Source of the DNA: Pseudomonadota bacterium
GTDB taxonomy: Bacteria > Pseudomonadota > Gammaproteobacteria > Xanthomonadales > Xanthomonadaceae
Reading direction: 5' to 3'
Assembly: GCA_021821195.1 (NCBI GenBank)
Contig: JAKACT010000003.1
Location: forward strand, 186,001-250,000
Length of the DNA: 64,000 bases
Position numbers and translations under genes: made by a program. Below, piece after piece: positions 43,449 to 50,215 of this stretch. Every line of letters begins with the position of its first letter. Position 1 is the stretch's first letter. The notes under the pieces are model-generated. The model was not told where the DNA came from, ran no database searches, and saw nothing but the letters and a program-made list of their open reading frames with translations.

Positions 43449-44114
43449 TCAGCCGCGACGGAAACAGAAGTGTTCGAAACCCGCGCCCAGCCGCTGCAGG
43501 TCCAGCGTGGCTTCCGCCACCAGCCCGCGCCCGTCTTCGCGACATTCCTGCAGCGCCCAGTGGCGCACGCCGCGCGCCGCCAGCCGTTCCGCCAGGCCAT
43601 ACAGCGCCGGCAGCGGAAACAGCCCCGGATGCCAGGTGGTCCGGCATTCGTAAGCCACGCCGCTGGCCAGCACCGCCTCCAGCGCTTCGCCCACCGGGCG
43701 CGCGCTGTCGCGGCGGCCGGTCACCGCGTCGTAGTGCGCGTCCGGCGCCTTGATGTCCAGCCCGATCCAGTCCAGCTGCGGCAGCAGATGACGCAGCCGC
43801 GCCGGATACATGCCGCCGGTATGCAGGCCGATCTGGTAGCCCATCGCCTTCACCCGCGCGACGGCCTCGGGCAGCGCGGCCTGCGCGGTCGGTTCGCCGC
43901 CCGAAAATACCACCGCGTCGAGCAGGCCGACGCGGCGGTGCAGGAACGCCTCGACCTGCGCCCAGGCAACCCCGCCCTGCCCGCGCGCCGGCAGCAGTTC
44001 GGGGTTGTGGCAGTAGCCGCAGCGCCAGGGACAGCCCTGCAGGTACAACACCGCCGCCAGCCGACCGGGGAAGTCGATGCTGGTCAGCGGCGTCATCCCG
44101 CCGACGCGGATCAT
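43449..44114 (-). CDS. nrdG: Anaerobic ribonucleotide reductase activase (radical SAM)
   Basis: 221 residues. The radical SAM cysteines are in LQGCPWRCGYCHNPE (CxxxCxxC). SGGEPTAQ is the SAM-binding GGE motif. The N-terminal MTPLTSIDFPGRLAAVLY matches NrdG of the Pseudomonas type. It installs the glycyl radical on NrdD; here the target glycine is on the separate small protein encoded just upstream. The ATG at 44114 overlaps the stop of that gene by ATGA. Confidence 0.92.
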   Translation of the reverse strand: MIRVGGMTPLTSIDFPGRLAAVLYLQGCPWRCGYCHNPELLPARGQGGVAWAQVEAFLHRRVGLLDAVVFSGGEPTAQAALPEAVARVKAMGYQIGLHTGGMYPARLRHLLPQLDWIGLDIKAPDAHYDAVTGRRDSARPVGEALEAVLASGVAYECRTTWHPGLFPLPALYGLAERLAARGVRHWALQECREDGRGLVAEATLDLQRLGAGFEHFCFRRG

Positions 44115-44311
44115 GCGGCGGCGGCTGCCAGCGTGGCGCGCGGGCGTTCGCTGAAGAAACAGCGCTCGGCGTGCTCGCCCTGCTTGCCGATGTTGAAGCT
44201 GGACACCGGGCGGTGGTAGCCCATCACCCGCGTCCACACTTCGCAGCGCTGGCGGTCTTCGTTGCGCAGCGAAGCGGTGGCGGACGCTGCGGAATTGGCG
44301 GTGTTGTTCAT
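44111..44311 (-). CDS. Separate glycyl-radical-domain protein of the class III ribonucleotide reductase
   Basis: 66 residues. After about 20 Ala/Ser/Thr/Asn residues the chain reads QRCEVWTRVMGYHRPV and SSFNIGKQGEHAERCFFSE, the C-terminal glycyl-radical segment that is normally the end of NrdD. The radical glycine is Gly31, in RVMGY. GAGGAG stands 8 bases before the ATG, which overlaps the nrdD stop by ATGA, and the stop overlaps nrdG by ATGA. It is therefore made as its own polypeptide. It must dock on the NrdD core to place Gly31 near the catalytic cysteine. The separate gene looks designed, not a simple frameshift. Confidence 0.85.
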   Translation of the reverse strand: MNNTANSAASATASLRNEDRQRCEVWTRVMGYHRPVSSFNIGKQGEHAERCFFSERPRATLAAAAA

Positions 44312-46083
44312 GCGGAAATCTCCTCGTGGAAGGTGGCGTCGGTAATCGACGGCCGGGCGGCCGCCTGCAGTTCCGCCAGCAGCCGCTGGTCGCAGCGCGG
44401 GCAGAATTCGTGCTCGCCCGCCAGGTAGCCGTGCTCCGGGCAGATCGAGAAGGTGGGCGTGATCGTGATGTAGGGCAGGCGGAAGCGGCTCAGAGCGCGC
44501 CGCACCAGGTCGCGGCAGGCATCGCCGCTGGACAGGCGCTCGCCCATGTACAGGTGCAGCACGGTGCCGCCGGTGTAGCGCGACTGCAGCGCCTCCTGCC
44601 GCTCCAGCGCCTCGAACGGATCGTCTGTGAAGCCCACCGGCAGTTGCGAGGAATTGGTGTAGTACGGCCGCTCGCTGCTGCCCGCCTGCAGGATGTCCGG
44701 CCAGCGCCGGCGGTCCTCCTTGGCGAAGCGGTAGGTGGTGCCTTCGGCTGGCGTGGCTTCGAGGTTGTAGAGCTGGCCGGTCTGCTCCTGGAACTCCACC
44801 ATCCGCGCGCGCACGTGGTCCAGCAGGTGCAGCGCGAAAGCGTGGCCCCAGTCGCTGGTCAGGTCGTGTGCGTCGCCGCTGAAATTGCGGACCATCTCGT
44901 TGATGCCGTTCACCCCCAGCGTCGAGAAGTGGTTGCGCAGTGTGCCGAGATAGCGCTTGGTGTACGGGTACAGGCCGTCGTCGATCAGCTGCTGGATGGT
45001 GCCGCGCTTGATTTCCAGGCTGCGCCGGCCCAGCTCCAGCAGTTCGTCCAGGCGCGCGAACAGGCCGGCTTCGTCGCCGCGATGCAGATGGCCCAGCCGC
45101 GCGCAGTTGATCGTGACCACGCCCAGGCTGCCGGTCTGCTCGGCGCTGCCGAACAAGCCGTTGCCGCGCTTGAGCAGCTCGCGCAGGTCCAGCTGCAGCC
45201 GGCAGCACATCGAGCGGATCATCCCCGGGTCCAGCTCGGAATTGATGAAGTTCTGGAAGTACGGCAAGCCGTACTTCGCGGTCATCTCGAACAGCAGCCG
45301 CGCGTTCTCCGATTCCCACGGGAAGTCGGCGGTGATGTTGTAGGTCGGGATCGGGAAGGTGAATACCCGCCCGCGCGCATCGCCCGCGCTCATCACCTCG
45401 ATGTAGGCGCGATTGAACAGGTCCATCTCCGCCTGCAGTTCGCCGTAGGTGAACGGCATTTCCTCGCCACCGATGAACGGGGTCTGGTGGCGCAGGTCGG
45501 CCGGACACACCCAGTCGAAGGTGAGGTTGGTGAACGGCGTCTGCGTGCCCCAGCGCGAAGGCACGTTGAGGTTGAAGATCAGTTCCTGGATGCACTGGCG
45601 CACGTCGTCGTAGGACAGCGCGTCCTTGCGCACGAACGGCGCCATGTAGGTGTCGAACGAGGAGAACGCCTGCGCGCCCGCCCATTCGTTCTGCAGGGTG
45701 CCGAGGAAGTTGACGATCTGTCCTACCGCCGACGACAGGTGCCTGGGCGGGCCGGCCTCGACCTTGTTGGGCACGCCGTTGAAGCCTTCGTACAGCAGCG
45801 TGCGCAGCGACCAGCCGGCGCAATAGCCGGATAGCATGTCGAGGTCGTGGATATGCAGGTCGGCTTCGCGGTGGGCGCGGCCGATCTCCGGCGGATAGAT
45901 CTTCTCCAGCCAGTAGTTGGCGGTCACCTTGCCGGCGACGTTGAGGATCAGCCCGCCCAGCGAATAGCCCTGGTTAGCGTTGGCGTTGACCCGCCAGTCC
46001 GCGCGGGTCAGGTATTCCTCGACCGAGCTGACCGGATCGACCAGGCTGCGCCCGGCCATGACTGTGGAATTGCCTGGTTGCAT
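44308..46083 (-). CDS. nrdD: Class III ribonucleotide reductase core subunit, lacking the glycyl-radical tail
   Basis: 591 residues. There is no ATP-cone; the N-terminus begins with the catalytic barrel. Catalytic cysteines are C88 in YCAGWS and the pair C293/C294 in MCCRLQLD. The zinc site is in SICPEHGYLAGEHEFCPRC near residue 560. The chain then stops about 15 residues later. Full-length NrdD continues into the glycyl-radical motif, which here is a separate protein. The enzyme reduces ribonucleotides without oxygen. AAGGAGAGG precedes the ATG. A candidate FNR/CRP-type site lies upstream at 46110. Confidence 0.93.
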   Translation of the reverse strand: MQPGNSTVMAGRSLVDPVSSVEEYLTRADWRVNANANQGYSLGGLILNVAGKVTANYWLEKIYPPEIGRAHREADLHIHDLDMLSGYCAGWSLRTLLYEGFNGVPNKVEAGPPRHLSSAVGQIVNFLGTLQNEWAGAQAFSSFDTYMAPFVRKDALSYDDVRQCIQELIFNLNVPSRWGTQTPFTNLTFDWVCPADLRHQTPFIGGEEMPFTYGELQAEMDLFNRAYIEVMSAGDARGRVFTFPIPTYNITADFPWESENARLLFEMTAKYGLPYFQNFINSELDPGMIRSMCCRLQLDLRELLKRGNGLFGSAEQTGSLGVVTINCARLGHLHRGDEAGLFARLDELLELGRRSLEIKRGTIQQLIDDGLYPYTKRYLGTLRNHFSTLGVNGINEMVRNFSGDAHDLTSDWGHAFALHLLDHVRARMVEFQEQTGQLYNLEATPAEGTTYRFAKEDRRRWPDILQAGSSERPYYTNSSQLPVGFTDDPFEALERQEALQSRYTGGTVLHLYMGERLSSGDACRDLVRRALSRFRLPYITITPTFSICPEHGYLAGEHEFCPRCDQRLLAELQAAARPSITDATFHEEISA

Positions 46084-46423: not shown

Positions 46424-46825
46424 CTACGGCGGGTGCTCGGGCAGTGCCGGGATCTCGGTCGGCCGCCCACGCCCGTCCAGCGCGATCATGGTGAAACGCC
46501 CGCGCGTGCACAGCTCGCGCTCGCCGCCCAGCAGGTCTTCGGCGATCAGCTCCACCTCCACCTGCATCGAACTGCGCCCGACCTCGACGATCCGCGCCAC
46601 CACTTCCACCAGCTGCCCTTGCCGGATCGGCAGGCGGAAATCCACCTGCTCCGAACGCGCCGTCACCACCGTCCGCCGCGCATAGCGCGAAGCGGCGATG
46701 AACGCGGCCTTGTCCATCCACGCCAGCGCCTGCCCGCCGAACAGCGTGCCCAGGTGATTGGCATGGTCGGGGAAGACGATTTCCTGCAGCCGCGCCTCAG
46801 TTGGACGCACCGGCTCAGAAGGCAT
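46424..46825 (-). CDS. Acyl-CoA thioesterase (hotdog fold, YciA-like)
   Basis: 133 residues. The hotdog signature is HANHLGTLFGGQALAWMDKAAF, in two parts: the Asp in WMDKAA is the likely catalytic residue. VTARSEQVDFRLPIRQGQLVE matches the YciA/acyl-CoA hydrolase group. The start overlaps the end of nrdB by 11 bases, so it is the third gene of the nrdAB operon. A thioesterase has no known role with ribonucleotide reductase. Confidence 0.87.
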   Translation of the reverse strand: MPSEPVRPTEARLQEIVFPDHANHLGTLFGGQALAWMDKAAFIAASRYARRTVVTARSEQVDFRLPIRQGQLVEVVARIVEVGRSSMQVEVELIAEDLLGGERELCTRGRFTMIALDGRGRPTEIPALPEHPP

Positions 46826-47831
46826 GGTCGAACGCCACGTCGCCCTGCACGCCGACCTGGTAGGCAGACACCCGGCGCTCGAAGAAGTTGGCCAGCTCCT
46901 GCACGTCCTGCAGCTCCATGAACGGCAGCGGGTTGCGCACGTGGTACTGCCTGGCCATGCCGAGCTTGGCGAAATGGTTGTCGGCGCAGTGCTGCAGGTA
47001 CTGGCGCATGTCGCGGGTGGAAATGCCGGCCACGCCACCGGACAGCACATCCTCGGCGAACTGCACCTCGCATTCGATCGCCTCGGCCAGCATGTCGCGC
47101 ACCTGCGCCTCCATTTCGCCGTCGAACAGGCCAGGCTCCTCGGCGCGGATGGTGCGCACGCACTCGAACGCGAACTCCATGTGGCAGCTTTCGTCGCGGA
47201 ACACCCAGTTGGTGCCAGACGACAGCCCCGGCAGCAGGCCGCGCGAGCGGAAGTAGTAGACGTAGGCGAAGGCGGCGAAGAAGAACAGCCCCTCGATGCA
47301 GGCGGCGAAGCAGACCTGGTTGAGCAGGAACTGGCGGCGCTGCGCGCGCGTCCCGATGCGCCTGACGGCCTGCAGTGAATCGATCCACTTGAAGCAGAAC
47401 GCCGCCTTCTTGCTGATCGACGGGATGTTCTCCACCGCGGCAAACGCCTTGAAGCGCTCTTCCGGGTCCGGCAGGTAGTTGTCCAGCAGGGTCAGGTAGA
47501 ACTGCACGTGCAGCGCCTCCTCGTACAGCTGGCGCGACAGGTACATGCGCGCCTCAGGCGCGTTGAGGTGCTGGTACAGGTTCAGCACCAGGTTGTTGGA
47601 GACGATGGAATCGCCGGTGGCGAAGAACGCCACCAGCCGGTGGATCAGGTGGCAGTCGGCCGGGGTCATCTTCGAGTGCAGGTCGGAGATGTCGATCTGG
47701 AAGTTGATCTCGTCCACCGTCCAGCTGTTGCGGATGGCGTTGCGGTACATCTCGTAGAAGCCCGGGTAACGCATCGGGCGCAAGGTCAGCTCGAAGCCGG
47801 GGTCGAGCAGCATCTGCGGGGCGGCGCTCAT
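46815..47831 (-). CDS. nrdB: Class Ia ribonucleotide reductase small subunit
   Basis: 338-residue radical-carrying subunit. The helix QLYEEALHVQFYLTLLD carries the metal ligands Glu and His and the tyrosine in the place of E. coli Tyr122. The second metal ligand set is in RDESCHMEFAFE. NrdB-type C-terminal tail QGDVAFDHAF, which docks on NrdA, is present. The start overlaps the nrdA stop (ATGA). It is under the cobalamin riboswitch of the nrdA leader. Confidence 0.95.
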   Translation of the reverse strand: MSAAPQMLLDPGFELTLRPMRYPGFYEMYRNAIRNSWTVDEINFQIDISDLHSKMTPADCHLIHRLVAFFATGDSIVSNNLVLNLYQHLNAPEARMYLSRQLYEEALHVQFYLTLLDNYLPDPEERFKAFAAVENIPSISKKAAFCFKWIDSLQAVRRIGTRAQRRQFLLNQVCFAACIEGLFFFAAFAYVYYFRSRGLLPGLSSGTNWVFRDESCHMEFAFECVRTIRAEEPGLFDGEMEAQVRDMLAEAIECEVQFAEDVLSGGVAGISTRDMRQYLQHCADNHFAKLGMARQYHVRNPLPFMELQDVQELANFFERRVSAYQVGVQGDVAFDHAF

Positions 47832-50215
47832 TGGCAGGCCTCGCAGGCTTCCGGATTCTCCAGCGAACAGGCCACCGCCTGCGTTGGGGTGACGCCGGAT
47901 ACCGTGGTCTTGGCGATCCTGGTGGCCGGCCGCGAGCGCAGGTAGTAGCAGGTCTTGATGCCCTGCTTCCACGCATGCATGTACATGGACGACAGCGCGC
48001 CGATGTTCGGGCTTTCCATGAACAGGTTGAGCGAGGCGGACTGGTCGATGAACGCGCCGCGCTCGGCGGCCATGTCGATCAGGCTGCGCATCGGCAGTTC
48101 CCACACGGTGCGGTAGACGTGGCGCAGCGCTTCCGGGATCTGCGCGACGGCCTGGATGGAGCCCTCGGCCAGCTTGATCGCATCGCGCATCTCCGGCGTC
48201 CACAGGCCCAGCTGCTTGAGTTCGGCGACCAGGTAGCGGTTGACCTGCAGGAAGTCGCCGGACAGCGTCTCGCGCTTGAACAGGTTGGACACCTGCGGCT
48301 CCACGCATTCGTAGCAGCCGGCGATGGAAGCGATGGTGGCGGTCGGGGCGATCGCGATCAGCAGGGAGTTGCGCAGGCCATGCTGCCGGATGCGCGCGCG
48401 CAGGGCGTCCCAGCGCTCGACGTTCTCCGGCACCACGCCCCAGGCATCGAACTGCAGCTCGCCCACGGAGGCGCGGGTGTCGGCGAACGCGGCATGCGCA
48501 CCGCGCTCGATGGCCAGCTCGCAGGAGGTGTCCAGCGCATGGAAGTAGATGGTCTCGGCGATCCGCTTCGACAGCGCGCGCGCGGCATCGGAGTCGAACG
48601 GCAGGCGCTTGCGGAAGAACACGTCCTGCAAGCCCATGCAGCCCAGCCCCACCGGCCGCCAGCGCAGGTTGCCGCGACGCGCCGGCTCGATCGGGTAGAA
48701 GTTCAGGTCGATCACCCGGTCGAGCTGGCGTACCGCCAGGCGCACGGTTTCGGCGAGCTTGTCGAAATCGAAGTCGCCATGCGCGTCCAGATGGTTGCCG
48801 AGGTTGATCGAGCCGAGGTTGCACACCGCGGTTTCCTCGGCGCTGGTGACCTCCAGGATCTCGGTGCACAGGTTGGACAGGTGGATGACGTTGTGCGCGC
48901 GCAGGGTCTGGTTGCTGGCGCGGTTGCACTTGTCCTTGAAGGTCATCCAGCCGTTGCCGGTCTCGGCCAGGGTGCGCATCATCCGCGCGTACAGCTTGCG
49001 CGCCGGGATCGTGCGCGCCGCCTTGCCCTGCGCCTCGGCCTGCAGGTAGGCGTGCTCGAAATCCGCGCCGTGCAGGTCGACGAACTCGGGCACCATGCGC
49101 GGATCGAACAGCGACCAATCCTCGCCGGCCTCGACCCGCTGCATGAACAGGTCCGGCACCCAGTTGGCGAGGTTGAGGTTGTGGGTGCGGCGCGCCTCGT
49201 CGCCGGCGTTGTCGCGCAGTTCAAGGAAGTCCTCGATGTCGGCGTGCCAGGTCTCCAGGTACACGCAGGCCGCGCCCTTGCGCTTGCCGCCCTGGTTGAC
49301 CGCCGCCACCGACGAATCCAGCGTCTTCAGCCAGGGAACGATCCCGTTGGAATGGCCGTTGGTCGAACGGATCAGCGAGCCTCGCGAGCGCACGCGCGAC
49401 CAACTCACGCCGATCCCGCCGCTGAACTTCGACAATTGCGCGATCTCGCCGTACCTGCCGTAGATCGACTCCAGCGAATCCTGCGGCGAGTCCAGCAGGA
49501 AGCAGGACGACAACTGCTCGTGGCGGGTGCCGGCGTTGAACAGGGTCGGGCTGGACGGCAGGTAGTCCAGCCTGCCCAGCCGCTGGTACAGCGCCAGCGC
49601 CTCCGGCACGTCCTCGGAGAGCGCGCTGGCGATGCGCAGGAAGAACTGCTGCGGGGTCTCGATGACCTTGCGGCTGTGCGGGTGGCGCAGCAAGTAGCGG
49701 TCGTACAGGGTGCGCAGGCCGAAGTAGTCGAAGTTCAGGTCGAGCGCCGGATCGATGGCGTCGTTGAGCTTGCGCGCGTTGGCCTGCACGAAGCCGAGCA
49801 GGCGGTCGTTGACTAGGCCCACCTCGTGCCCGCGGCTGACCGACTGCGAGAAGGCGTGGATCTCCTGCCCGGAGACTTCCTTGGCGATGGTGTTGGCGAG
49901 CAGGCGCGCGGCCAGCCGGCCGTATTCGGGTTCCTCGCCGATCAGCAGCGCGGCGGTGCGGATCGACAGCTCGTCCAGCTCCTGCGTGGTCGCGCCGTTG
50001 TACAGGCCGGAGATGGTGCGGGTGGCGACGCGCATCGGATCGACTGCGTGCAGCCCCTCGCAGCAGCGCTGGACGGCGCGCACGATCTTGTTGAGATCGA
50101 CCGGCTCGGTGCAGCCGTTGCGCTTGGTCACCGCCATGGCGGTGGCGGTGGGTGGCGGGGTGAGGTCGAACGCGGGCGCGGCGGCCGGCGCTTCGGCAAT
50201 CAAGGTCTGTGGCAT
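47828..50215 (-). CDS. nrdA: Class Ia ribonucleotide reductase large subunit
   Basis: 795 residues. An ATP-cone (about 28-115: AVTKRNGCTEPVDLNKIVRA) precedes the catalytic barrel. The first redox cysteine is in SSCFLLDSPQDS. The Asn/Cys/Glu active-site loop is in NLCTEILEVTSAEETAVCNLGS (in two pieces). APTATIASIAGCYECVEP is the C-terminal barrel motif. The tail ends EACEACQ, the swinging CxxC pair that accepts electrons from thioredoxin or glutaredoxin. GGAG precedes the ATG by about 7 bases. A cobalamin riboswitch fills the leader. Confidence 0.96.
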   Translation of the reverse strand: MPQTLIAEAPAAAPAFDLTPPPTATAMAVTKRNGCTEPVDLNKIVRAVQRCCEGLHAVDPMRVATRTISGLYNGATTQELDELSIRTAALLIGEEPEYGRLAARLLANTIAKEVSGQEIHAFSQSVSRGHEVGLVNDRLLGFVQANARKLNDAIDPALDLNFDYFGLRTLYDRYLLRHPHSRKVIETPQQFFLRIASALSEDVPEALALYQRLGRLDYLPSSPTLFNAGTRHEQLSSCFLLDSPQDSLESIYGRYGEIAQLSKFSGGIGVSWSRVRSRGSLIRSTNGHSNGIVPWLKTLDSSVAAVNQGGKRKGAACVYLETWHADIEDFLELRDNAGDEARRTHNLNLANWVPDLFMQRVEAGEDWSLFDPRMVPEFVDLHGADFEHAYLQAEAQGKAARTIPARKLYARMMRTLAETGNGWMTFKDKCNRASNQTLRAHNVIHLSNLCTEILEVTSAEETAVCNLGSINLGNHLDAHGDFDFDKLAETVRLAVRQLDRVIDLNFYPIEPARRGNLRWRPVGLGCMGLQDVFFRKRLPFDSDAARALSKRIAETIYFHALDTSCELAIERGAHAAFADTRASVGELQFDAWGVVPENVERWDALRARIRQHGLRNSLLIAIAPTATIASIAGCYECVEPQVSNLFKRETLSGDFLQVNRYLVAELKQLGLWTPEMRDAIKLAEGSIQAVAQIPEALRHVYRTVWELPMRSLIDMAAERGAFIDQSASLNLFMESPNIGALSSMYMHAWKQGIKTCYYLRSRPATRIAKTTVSGVTPTQAVACSLENPEACEACQ

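Follow-up and report, generated by a model that had tools for sequence, protein, structure and literature searches.

A class III ribonucleotide reductase encoded in two chains, with a predicted glycyl-radical subunit on a free-standing 66-residue protein

A three-gene operon for a class III ribonucleotide reductase (RNR) lies on a 64,000-nucleotide (nt) stretch of DNA from a bacterium of the Xanthomonadaceae (assembly GCA_021821195.1, contig JAKACT010000003.1, positions 186,001 to 250,000), hereafter the window. The first gene encodes an NrdD core, the second a small protein that we refer to as the tail, and the third an NrdG activase; the core/tail and tail/nrdG junctions are both ATGA overlaps (Table 1). 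A preliminary description, made from the DNA letters alone, had proposed that the enzyme is split and that its glycyl-radical part is a protein of its own, which has a GAGGAG and an ATG and is coupled by ATGA to nrdD and to nrdG. All of these elements are seen at the locus, and core and tail are separate open reading frames (ORFs) that match different parts of PF13597. Specifically, profile searches place the core at positions 2-529 of 562 in PF13597 (E 1.4e-172) and at positions 96-656 of 684 in NF006126 (1038 bits, above the cut-off), and the tail at positions 532-561 of PF13597 (30.6 bits, cut-off 26.2); only the final ~30 positions of the two models are matched by the tail. PF13597 (NrdD) is the sole Pfam family that the tail matches at E 0.1.

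The residue numbers given in the preliminary description for the finger-loop cysteines (Cys293 and Cys294) and for the radical glycine (Gly31) are right, and both cysteines of the MCCR motif are invariant in 20 aligned rows. The last conserved element of the core is a zinc-binding stretch in which Cys548, His551, Cys561 and Cys564 presumably serve as ligands, as in known NrdDs; 27 core residues remain past Cys564. In the tail, ~20 variable residues precede CEVWTRVMGYHRPVSSFNIGKQGEH, which holds Gly31. The first ~95 positions of NF006126, the expected ATP-cone region, have no counterpart in the window core, as judged by length. Core frames of relatives are mostly ~680 amino acids (aa) long, and those of Pseudoxanthomonas loci L017, L052 and L072 are short like that of the window. 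The system shares the barrel, finger-loop cysteines, zinc site, glycyl loop and NrdG partner with single-chain NrdDs (E. coli, phage T4, Thermotoga maritima, Prevotella copri; NF006126/PF13597), whereas its glycyl loop is a separate protein and the N-terminal ATP-cone region is also missing. Judged by these alignments, the window core can be classed as a member of NrdD by homology and a variant by architecture. The MCCR motif class of NrdD is described in the available text of PMC9669993.

Table 1. Positions of the genes and motifs discussed; numbers refer to the window unless a locus is named
Feature	Position	Strand, start	Notes
nrdD core, 591 aa	46083-44308	minus, ATG	barrel, finger-loop cysteines and zinc site; glycyl-radical loop lacking; PF13597/NF006126 matches
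Cys293-Cys294 codons (SMCCRL, double-cysteine finger-loop motif)	45202..45207	minus	sequence
Zinc-binding stretch, Cys548-His551...Cys561-Cys564	44392..44442	minus	sequence; final conserved element of core
GAGGAG Shine-Dalgarno of tail gene, within 3' end of core gene	44325-44320	minus	sequence; same in congener
Free glycyl-radical subunit, 66 aa (CEVWTRVMGYHRPVSSFNIGKQGEH)	44311-44111	minus, ATG	ORF, profile match and alignment
Gly31 codon, predicted radical glycine	44219..44221	minus	invariant in 34 aligned free tails and 61 distinct viral segments
NrdG2-type radical-SAM (S-adenosylmethionine) activase, 221 aa	44114-43449	minus	TIGR02495, 192 bits vs cut-off 131
60-aa free tail of MGCR-type NrdD, ending ARTRRITGYLVGTLDRFNNAKRAEEKDRVKHGCS	L127 3412-3594; L135 4069-4251		genomes G500 and G432

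How common is this arrangement? A scan of a genome collection with the core returned at least 584 matches, of which the best 80 were kept; by record titles, these loci are mostly from Beta-, Gamma- and Alphaproteobacteria. NrdD is split in 76 of the 80 best loci and single-chain in two, and in one the core runs off its contig. The preliminary description had left the spread of the split to a search for its conservation in a clade, and had considered that it might be unique to this assembly, with all close relatives single-chain; the split is instead wider than it could tell. Two-chain NrdD is widespread in Proteobacteria. Residues R28, G31, R34, P35, N40, G42, K43, E46 and R50 are invariant in 34 aligned free tails. 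A cysteine five residues ahead of the RVxGY motif is found in 92/93 free tails, as compared with 11/26 single chains. For 70/77 tails, nrdG follows within 200 nt. At one locus in a Geobacteraceae metagenome-assembled genome (MAG; L049, repeated as L131), two near-identical tails flank an inserted ORF, the second directly before nrdG, a duplication of the tail around an insertion.

Truncated cores and separate tails also occur together at the level of whole genomes. In the window genome, which is 98% complete, the core and the tail are each matched once, and there is no further NrdD. Among 397 Pseudomonadota genomes surveyed, 66 have an NrdD match; 19 of these 66, the window genome included, have a truncated core (16 taken from the search table, and G432, G500 and G374 recognised by reading ORFs), and one separate tail is present in 19/19. 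No separate tail was found at E 0.001 in those of the 66 that have single-chain NrdD only. As a check, the tail search was run on eight single-chain genomes; it gave no match in two and only the end of the genome's own NrdD in six. Core and tail need not be adjacent: in G449, the tail adjoins nrdG 9.5 kb away from the core, and the tail is therefore a free gene that can travel with the activase. When the whole genomes of 40 of the 80 named loci were searched, four proved to have a second tail (G597, G621, G622 and G623). Two to five tails are present in 19 of 48 further-searched genomes, a set selected for extra or odd matches that gives no estimate of frequency.

An ATGA frame overlap is the classic look of a one-base error, and the preliminary description had named a sequencing error that joins the two frames as something to exclude. 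No reads are needed to dismiss this: in congener G002, the tail is 95% identical and the Shine-Dalgarno (SD) sequence and ATGA junction are identical to those of the window, so a one-base assembly error is excluded. The 76 split loci exclude an error as well: measured against the core, the tail is in frame 0 at 29 of them, in frame +1 at 26 and in frame +2 at 21, and it starts -41 to +298 nt from the core stop. Moreover, both chains have additional residues at the cut. The zinc CxxC and RVxGY are 8-16 residues apart in 26 single chains; in split forms, 10-105 residues follow CxxC (median 15, 87 cores) and 13-36 residues precede RVxGY (median 26, 93 tails). The chance that an error explains the locus is close to nil. 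Scarcely more probable is a programmed frameshift or stop read-through that fuses the two frames into one chain. Core and tail do share a frame with a single stop between them at 22/80 loci, and likewise in G432 and G500, but the occurrence of all three junction frames and the wide range of tail starts exclude frameshifting as well as error, all three stop codons are in use, and in G449 core and tail are unlinked. Furthermore, the tails carry their own initiation signals. After removal of two single-chain loci and both L131 rows from 95 tail ORFs, 90 of the remaining 91 start with ATG, 89 have an SD-like match of at least 4 bases and 82 one of at least 5 bases, although starts were picked by best SD, which makes the SD counts favourable by design. 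Together, these observations show that core and tail are two separately translated genes. In the window, the tail frame is open upstream through the core, reaching 570 aa from a TTG in G+C-rich DNA; in four relatives, the frame closes just 5' of the tail (open frames of 85, 71, 75 and 72 aa), and the start of the tail is therefore taken to be the ATG in Table 1.

A different possibility is that the tail is a spare part, mending NrdD that has been cleaved by oxygen rather than serving as a normal subunit. The preliminary description had drawn this comparison with GrcA/YfiD, and there is a real resemblance: according to the available text of PMC8683613, pyruvate formate-lyase (PFL) is mended in this way by GrcA/YfiD and by Y06I of phage T4. 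The additional tails in the selected genomes fit the same idea. For the window, however, the comparison fails. Its core never had a glycyl tail; with a single tail and no intact NrdD in the genome, there is nothing to back up; and across the surveyed genomes truncated cores pair with tails (19 cores, 19 tails). We therefore consider a spare-part role for the window tail very unlikely, though less so than the error or read-through explanations. The replaceable-part idea does find support outside the window, in unlinked extra tails, in those on plasmids, prophages and viral contigs, and in a ~100-aa tail that accompanies single-chain NrdD. Renewal of the radical part may also be a side benefit of the split itself. 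The Ala/Ser/Thr-rich N-terminus of the tail, which had been offered as a sign of a separate role, is variable among relatives and is no evidence for one. In the absence of a full-length NrdD in the window genome, the tail would be a required subunit, and as the only copy it would be an obligate one. Hence we propose, with a probability of about 0.92, that the class III RNR of the window locus is a two-chain enzyme, encoded complete with its activase, and that the tail is an obligate radical subunit. Several observations weigh against this proposal. Locus L081 has no tail within the 138 nt left on its contig; several of the loci are on MAG contigs and may carry incorrect species labels; the G923 assembly contains a tail and nrdG but lacks a core; and the genomes with more than one tail count against strict pairing. 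A structural model makes docking of the two chains plausible; it was computed for core and tail of Pseudoxanthomonas L017 as one chain, with the intervening TGA read through, and four of its five models score 52-66. The best model has a mean predicted local distance difference test (pLDDT) score of 73.4 and a predicted template modelling score of 0.74; pLDDT is 64-85 for the tail blocks, 30 for the last seven residues and below 50 for the linker. Its best solved matches are the NrdDs of Prevotella copri and Thermotoga maritima, and a sequence search of the PDB with the 66-aa tail gave no match.

How might a two-chain enzyme work? Chain 1 (591 aa) has the catalytic barrel, finger-loop cysteines and zinc site, and chain 2 (66 aa) only the glycyl-radical loop. 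NrdG would abstract hydrogen from Gly31 of chain 2, which would dock in the barrel at the site occupied by the C-terminal loop of an ordinary NrdD. The glycyl radical would then generate a thiyl radical on a finger-loop cysteine, leading to ribonucleotide reduction. If oxygen cleaved the radical chain, the loss to the cell would presumably be limited to a ~7-kDa protein. A radical subunit that is separable could likewise be provided in trans; this would account for the unlinked extra tails and for the free ones of phages and plasmids. To our knowledge, class III RNRs of solved structure have radical and active site on one chain. There is evidence that the two-chain form functions in Cupriavidus necator H16, whose plasmid pHG1 has the same three-gene layout as the window, nrdD-nrdD(small)-nrdG, annotated by RefSeq as proteins of 676, 66 and 239 aa. 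The C. necator core is 85 residues longer than that of the window, and its tail gene begins 143 nt past the core end. These genes are named simply nrdDG in the available part of PMC2864759, which, citing Siedow 1999, says that they are essential for complete denitrification. Because a split operon is reported to be necessary for this process, the two-chain form appears to work. Two polypeptides also make up NrdJab, the split class II RNR of Pseudomonas aeruginosa (described in the accessible portion of PMC4860495), which differs in belonging to another RNR class and in having no glycyl radical.

The history of the split is complex. A FastTree tree of 121 cores, rooted at its midpoint, has one large split clade nested among single-chain NrdDs. 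The tree was built without the locus whose core leaves its contig, L135, L168, L169, L058, L175, and cores shorter than 500 aa or scoring below 450 bits; states were set by hand for L154 and L163 (single-chain) and L132 (split), and L081 and L133 were left open, the latter (in G374) being split by ORF reading. Three single-chain lineages lie within the large split clade, namely Actinotalea L070, Acidiphilium L170 and Desulfovibrio L063/L140, and are probably re-fusions. Beyond this clade, NrdD is split in Sulfuricurvum L173, in L153 with L160, in L164 and in L166. The tree requires at least eight changes of state. A distant NrdD type, with an MGCR motif, a single cysteine and 83 bits to the window core, has been split independently in two species of one genus (G432 and G500), where a 682-aa core ends at a single in-frame stop ahead of a 60-aa tail that has its own ATG, and an ORF resembling a radical-SAM activase comes next. 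In L166 (3531-3677), a zinc-site cysteine appears to be on the small protein (MATKCDAKTEVYSRV), and the cut may therefore lie inside the zinc site. A separate kind of interruption is seen in the order of G620 (e.g., G1108, G1128 and G1172), where many NrdD cores are interrupted near PF13597 position ~156-158 by ~310 aa in one open frame; G1108 and G1128 have a second interruption near position ~74. These ~310-aa insertions look like inteins.

Within the genus, the window tail has a patchy distribution, being present in 3 of the 23 same-genus genomes listed (G000, G002 and G016), and the anaerobic nrdD operon is therefore probably accessory. FNR/Dnr-like TTGATNNNNATCAA boxes scoring 9 or more out of 10 were found in the 660 nt upstream of 30 of 77 loci drawn from L017-L096, compared with 0.8 expected from mononucleotide shuffles. 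Upstream of the window operon there is no such box at this threshold, the best matching 8 of 10. Class I RNR genes adjoin the nrdD operon upstream in the window (46815-50215, minus strand), an nrdA-like gene at 50215-47828 with an nrdB-like gene downstream, both named by eye.

Some of the extra tails lie in prophages and on plasmids. We read twenty regions, comprising 19 extra copies and the G923 tail. Seven of them (L178, L179, L180, L186, L187, L190 and L192) have phage-like neighbours, recognised by eye as tape measure, terminase, portal, morphogenesis and lysis genes; for L190, an endolysin and an Rz-like spanin were confirmed by PHROGs. The L194 tail adjoins a shortened nrdG-like ORF. The remaining regions resemble plasmids or integrative elements, or were left unclassed. 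One extra tail is on plasmid pALVIN01 of Allochromatium vinosum, with no core or nrdG annotated nearby. Five copies in the 48-genome set carry a flag for an in-frame stop, a possible sign of decay.

Free tails are also encoded by viruses. An alignment of tails was used to scan 2.9 million viral contigs, and the best 80 of 485 stretches were kept, more divergent ones lying outside this view. The viral tails are mostly small ORFs of 44-150 aa. With the window core as a phmmer query (E 1e-3), no NrdD core was found in 79/80 viral loci, and with the window NrdG (E 1e-8) no activase in any of the 80. When 50 of the 80 whole viral records, which may be fragments, were compared with PF13597, 49 had a tail alone and one had core and tail. 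Ten neighbouring genes, taken from four viral loci and the prophage locus L190, each match a PHROGs family; the families include terminase, portal, minor head, tape measure, neck, endolysin and spanin. All 80 loci align by tblastn, giving 61 distinct segments in which R28, G31, R34, P35, N40, G42, K43 and E46 are retained without exception; R50 is retained in 60 and is not covered in one. Loss of the radical glycine, as a decoy role for the phage tails would suggest, was looked for and not found in these best 80 of 485, and because the glycine is kept in 61/61 segments, the viral tails look functional. Some phage tails (L232, L237, L255 and L263) have an extra cysteine-rich N-terminal module, perhaps with its own zinc site; in L237, the PF13597 match (513-561) extends back into the zinc region. 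Matches for the window tail and for four viral tails fall within positions 114-158 of the 179 in phrog_4132, a family listed in PHROGs as of unknown function, which we propose to be an NrdD-type glycyl-radical subunit. A search of the INPHARED phage collection with four tail queries found no free tail, only weak matches; the annotated ones fall under NrdD genes, MT835493 is within an 810-residue open frame, and six matches to Lak phages (E 0.2) are unchecked. This absence may be why free tails were overlooked. It has been reported that phage nrdD genes are broken by introns, inteins or fragmentation (PMC3653736, as far as its text is available); the introns and inteins are distinct from a free-tail split. 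Considering genomic position, residue conservation and the precedent of T4 Y06I for PFL, we lean towards the view that phages supply the radical subunit of an anaerobic host's split class III RNR.

A better analogue of GrcA than the window tail is a family of ~100-aa proteins whose last 30 residues form an NrdD-type glycyl loop. These proteins are present in 7 of 11 genomes from a single order of relatives of sulfate reducers, in the same phylum as a Desulfovibrio MAG, and all seven genomes have an NrdD C-terminus elsewhere too, in a long frame in six. Four viral contigs encode relatives. The proteins at L278-L281 and L283-L286 have an N-terminal domain of their own ahead of the glycyl loop. 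This family would be to single-chain NrdD what GrcA is to PFL, a genuine spare part. The window tail resembles GrcA/YfiD of E. coli and Y06I of T4 in being a small, free protein with a glycyl-radical domain that depends on its partner's activase, and T4 provides the phage precedent (PMC8683613, available text). It differs in being NrdD-type (PF13597 only) rather than PFL-type and in having no intact full-length enzyme beside it, its genome containing one truncated core and one tail. GrcA itself we take to belong to the PFL-type glycyl model.

What are the implications of a separate radical subunit? A search of the literature, with subscription journals thinly covered, found no account of bacterial NrdD divided in this way, with its glycyl part free, and none of an NrdD-type tail borne by phages. 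In the text available, the 2021 paper on PFL spare parts names YfiD and Y06I as the sole validated cases and treats spares for other glycyl radical enzymes as a speculation (PMC8683613). Free NrdD tails are concrete candidates for such parts, and if the proposals made here are true, the viral tails and the ~100-aa family would serve a glycyl radical enzyme other than PFL as spare or supply parts. A phage gene family of unknown function would thereby be identified as probable radical subunits. Indeed, because the radical loop of the RNR would be a free part, a small gene would suffice: a phage or plasmid would need only ~44-150 codons to renew or boost the deoxynucleoside triphosphate synthesis of an anaerobic host. 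The two-chain form is natural, recurrent and widespread, and its radical subunit can be labelled, swapped and titrated separately from the catalytic subunit, so that both the installation of the radical by NrdG and its transfer become open to direct test. For facultative anaerobes, the split may offer a cheap answer to oxygen damage.

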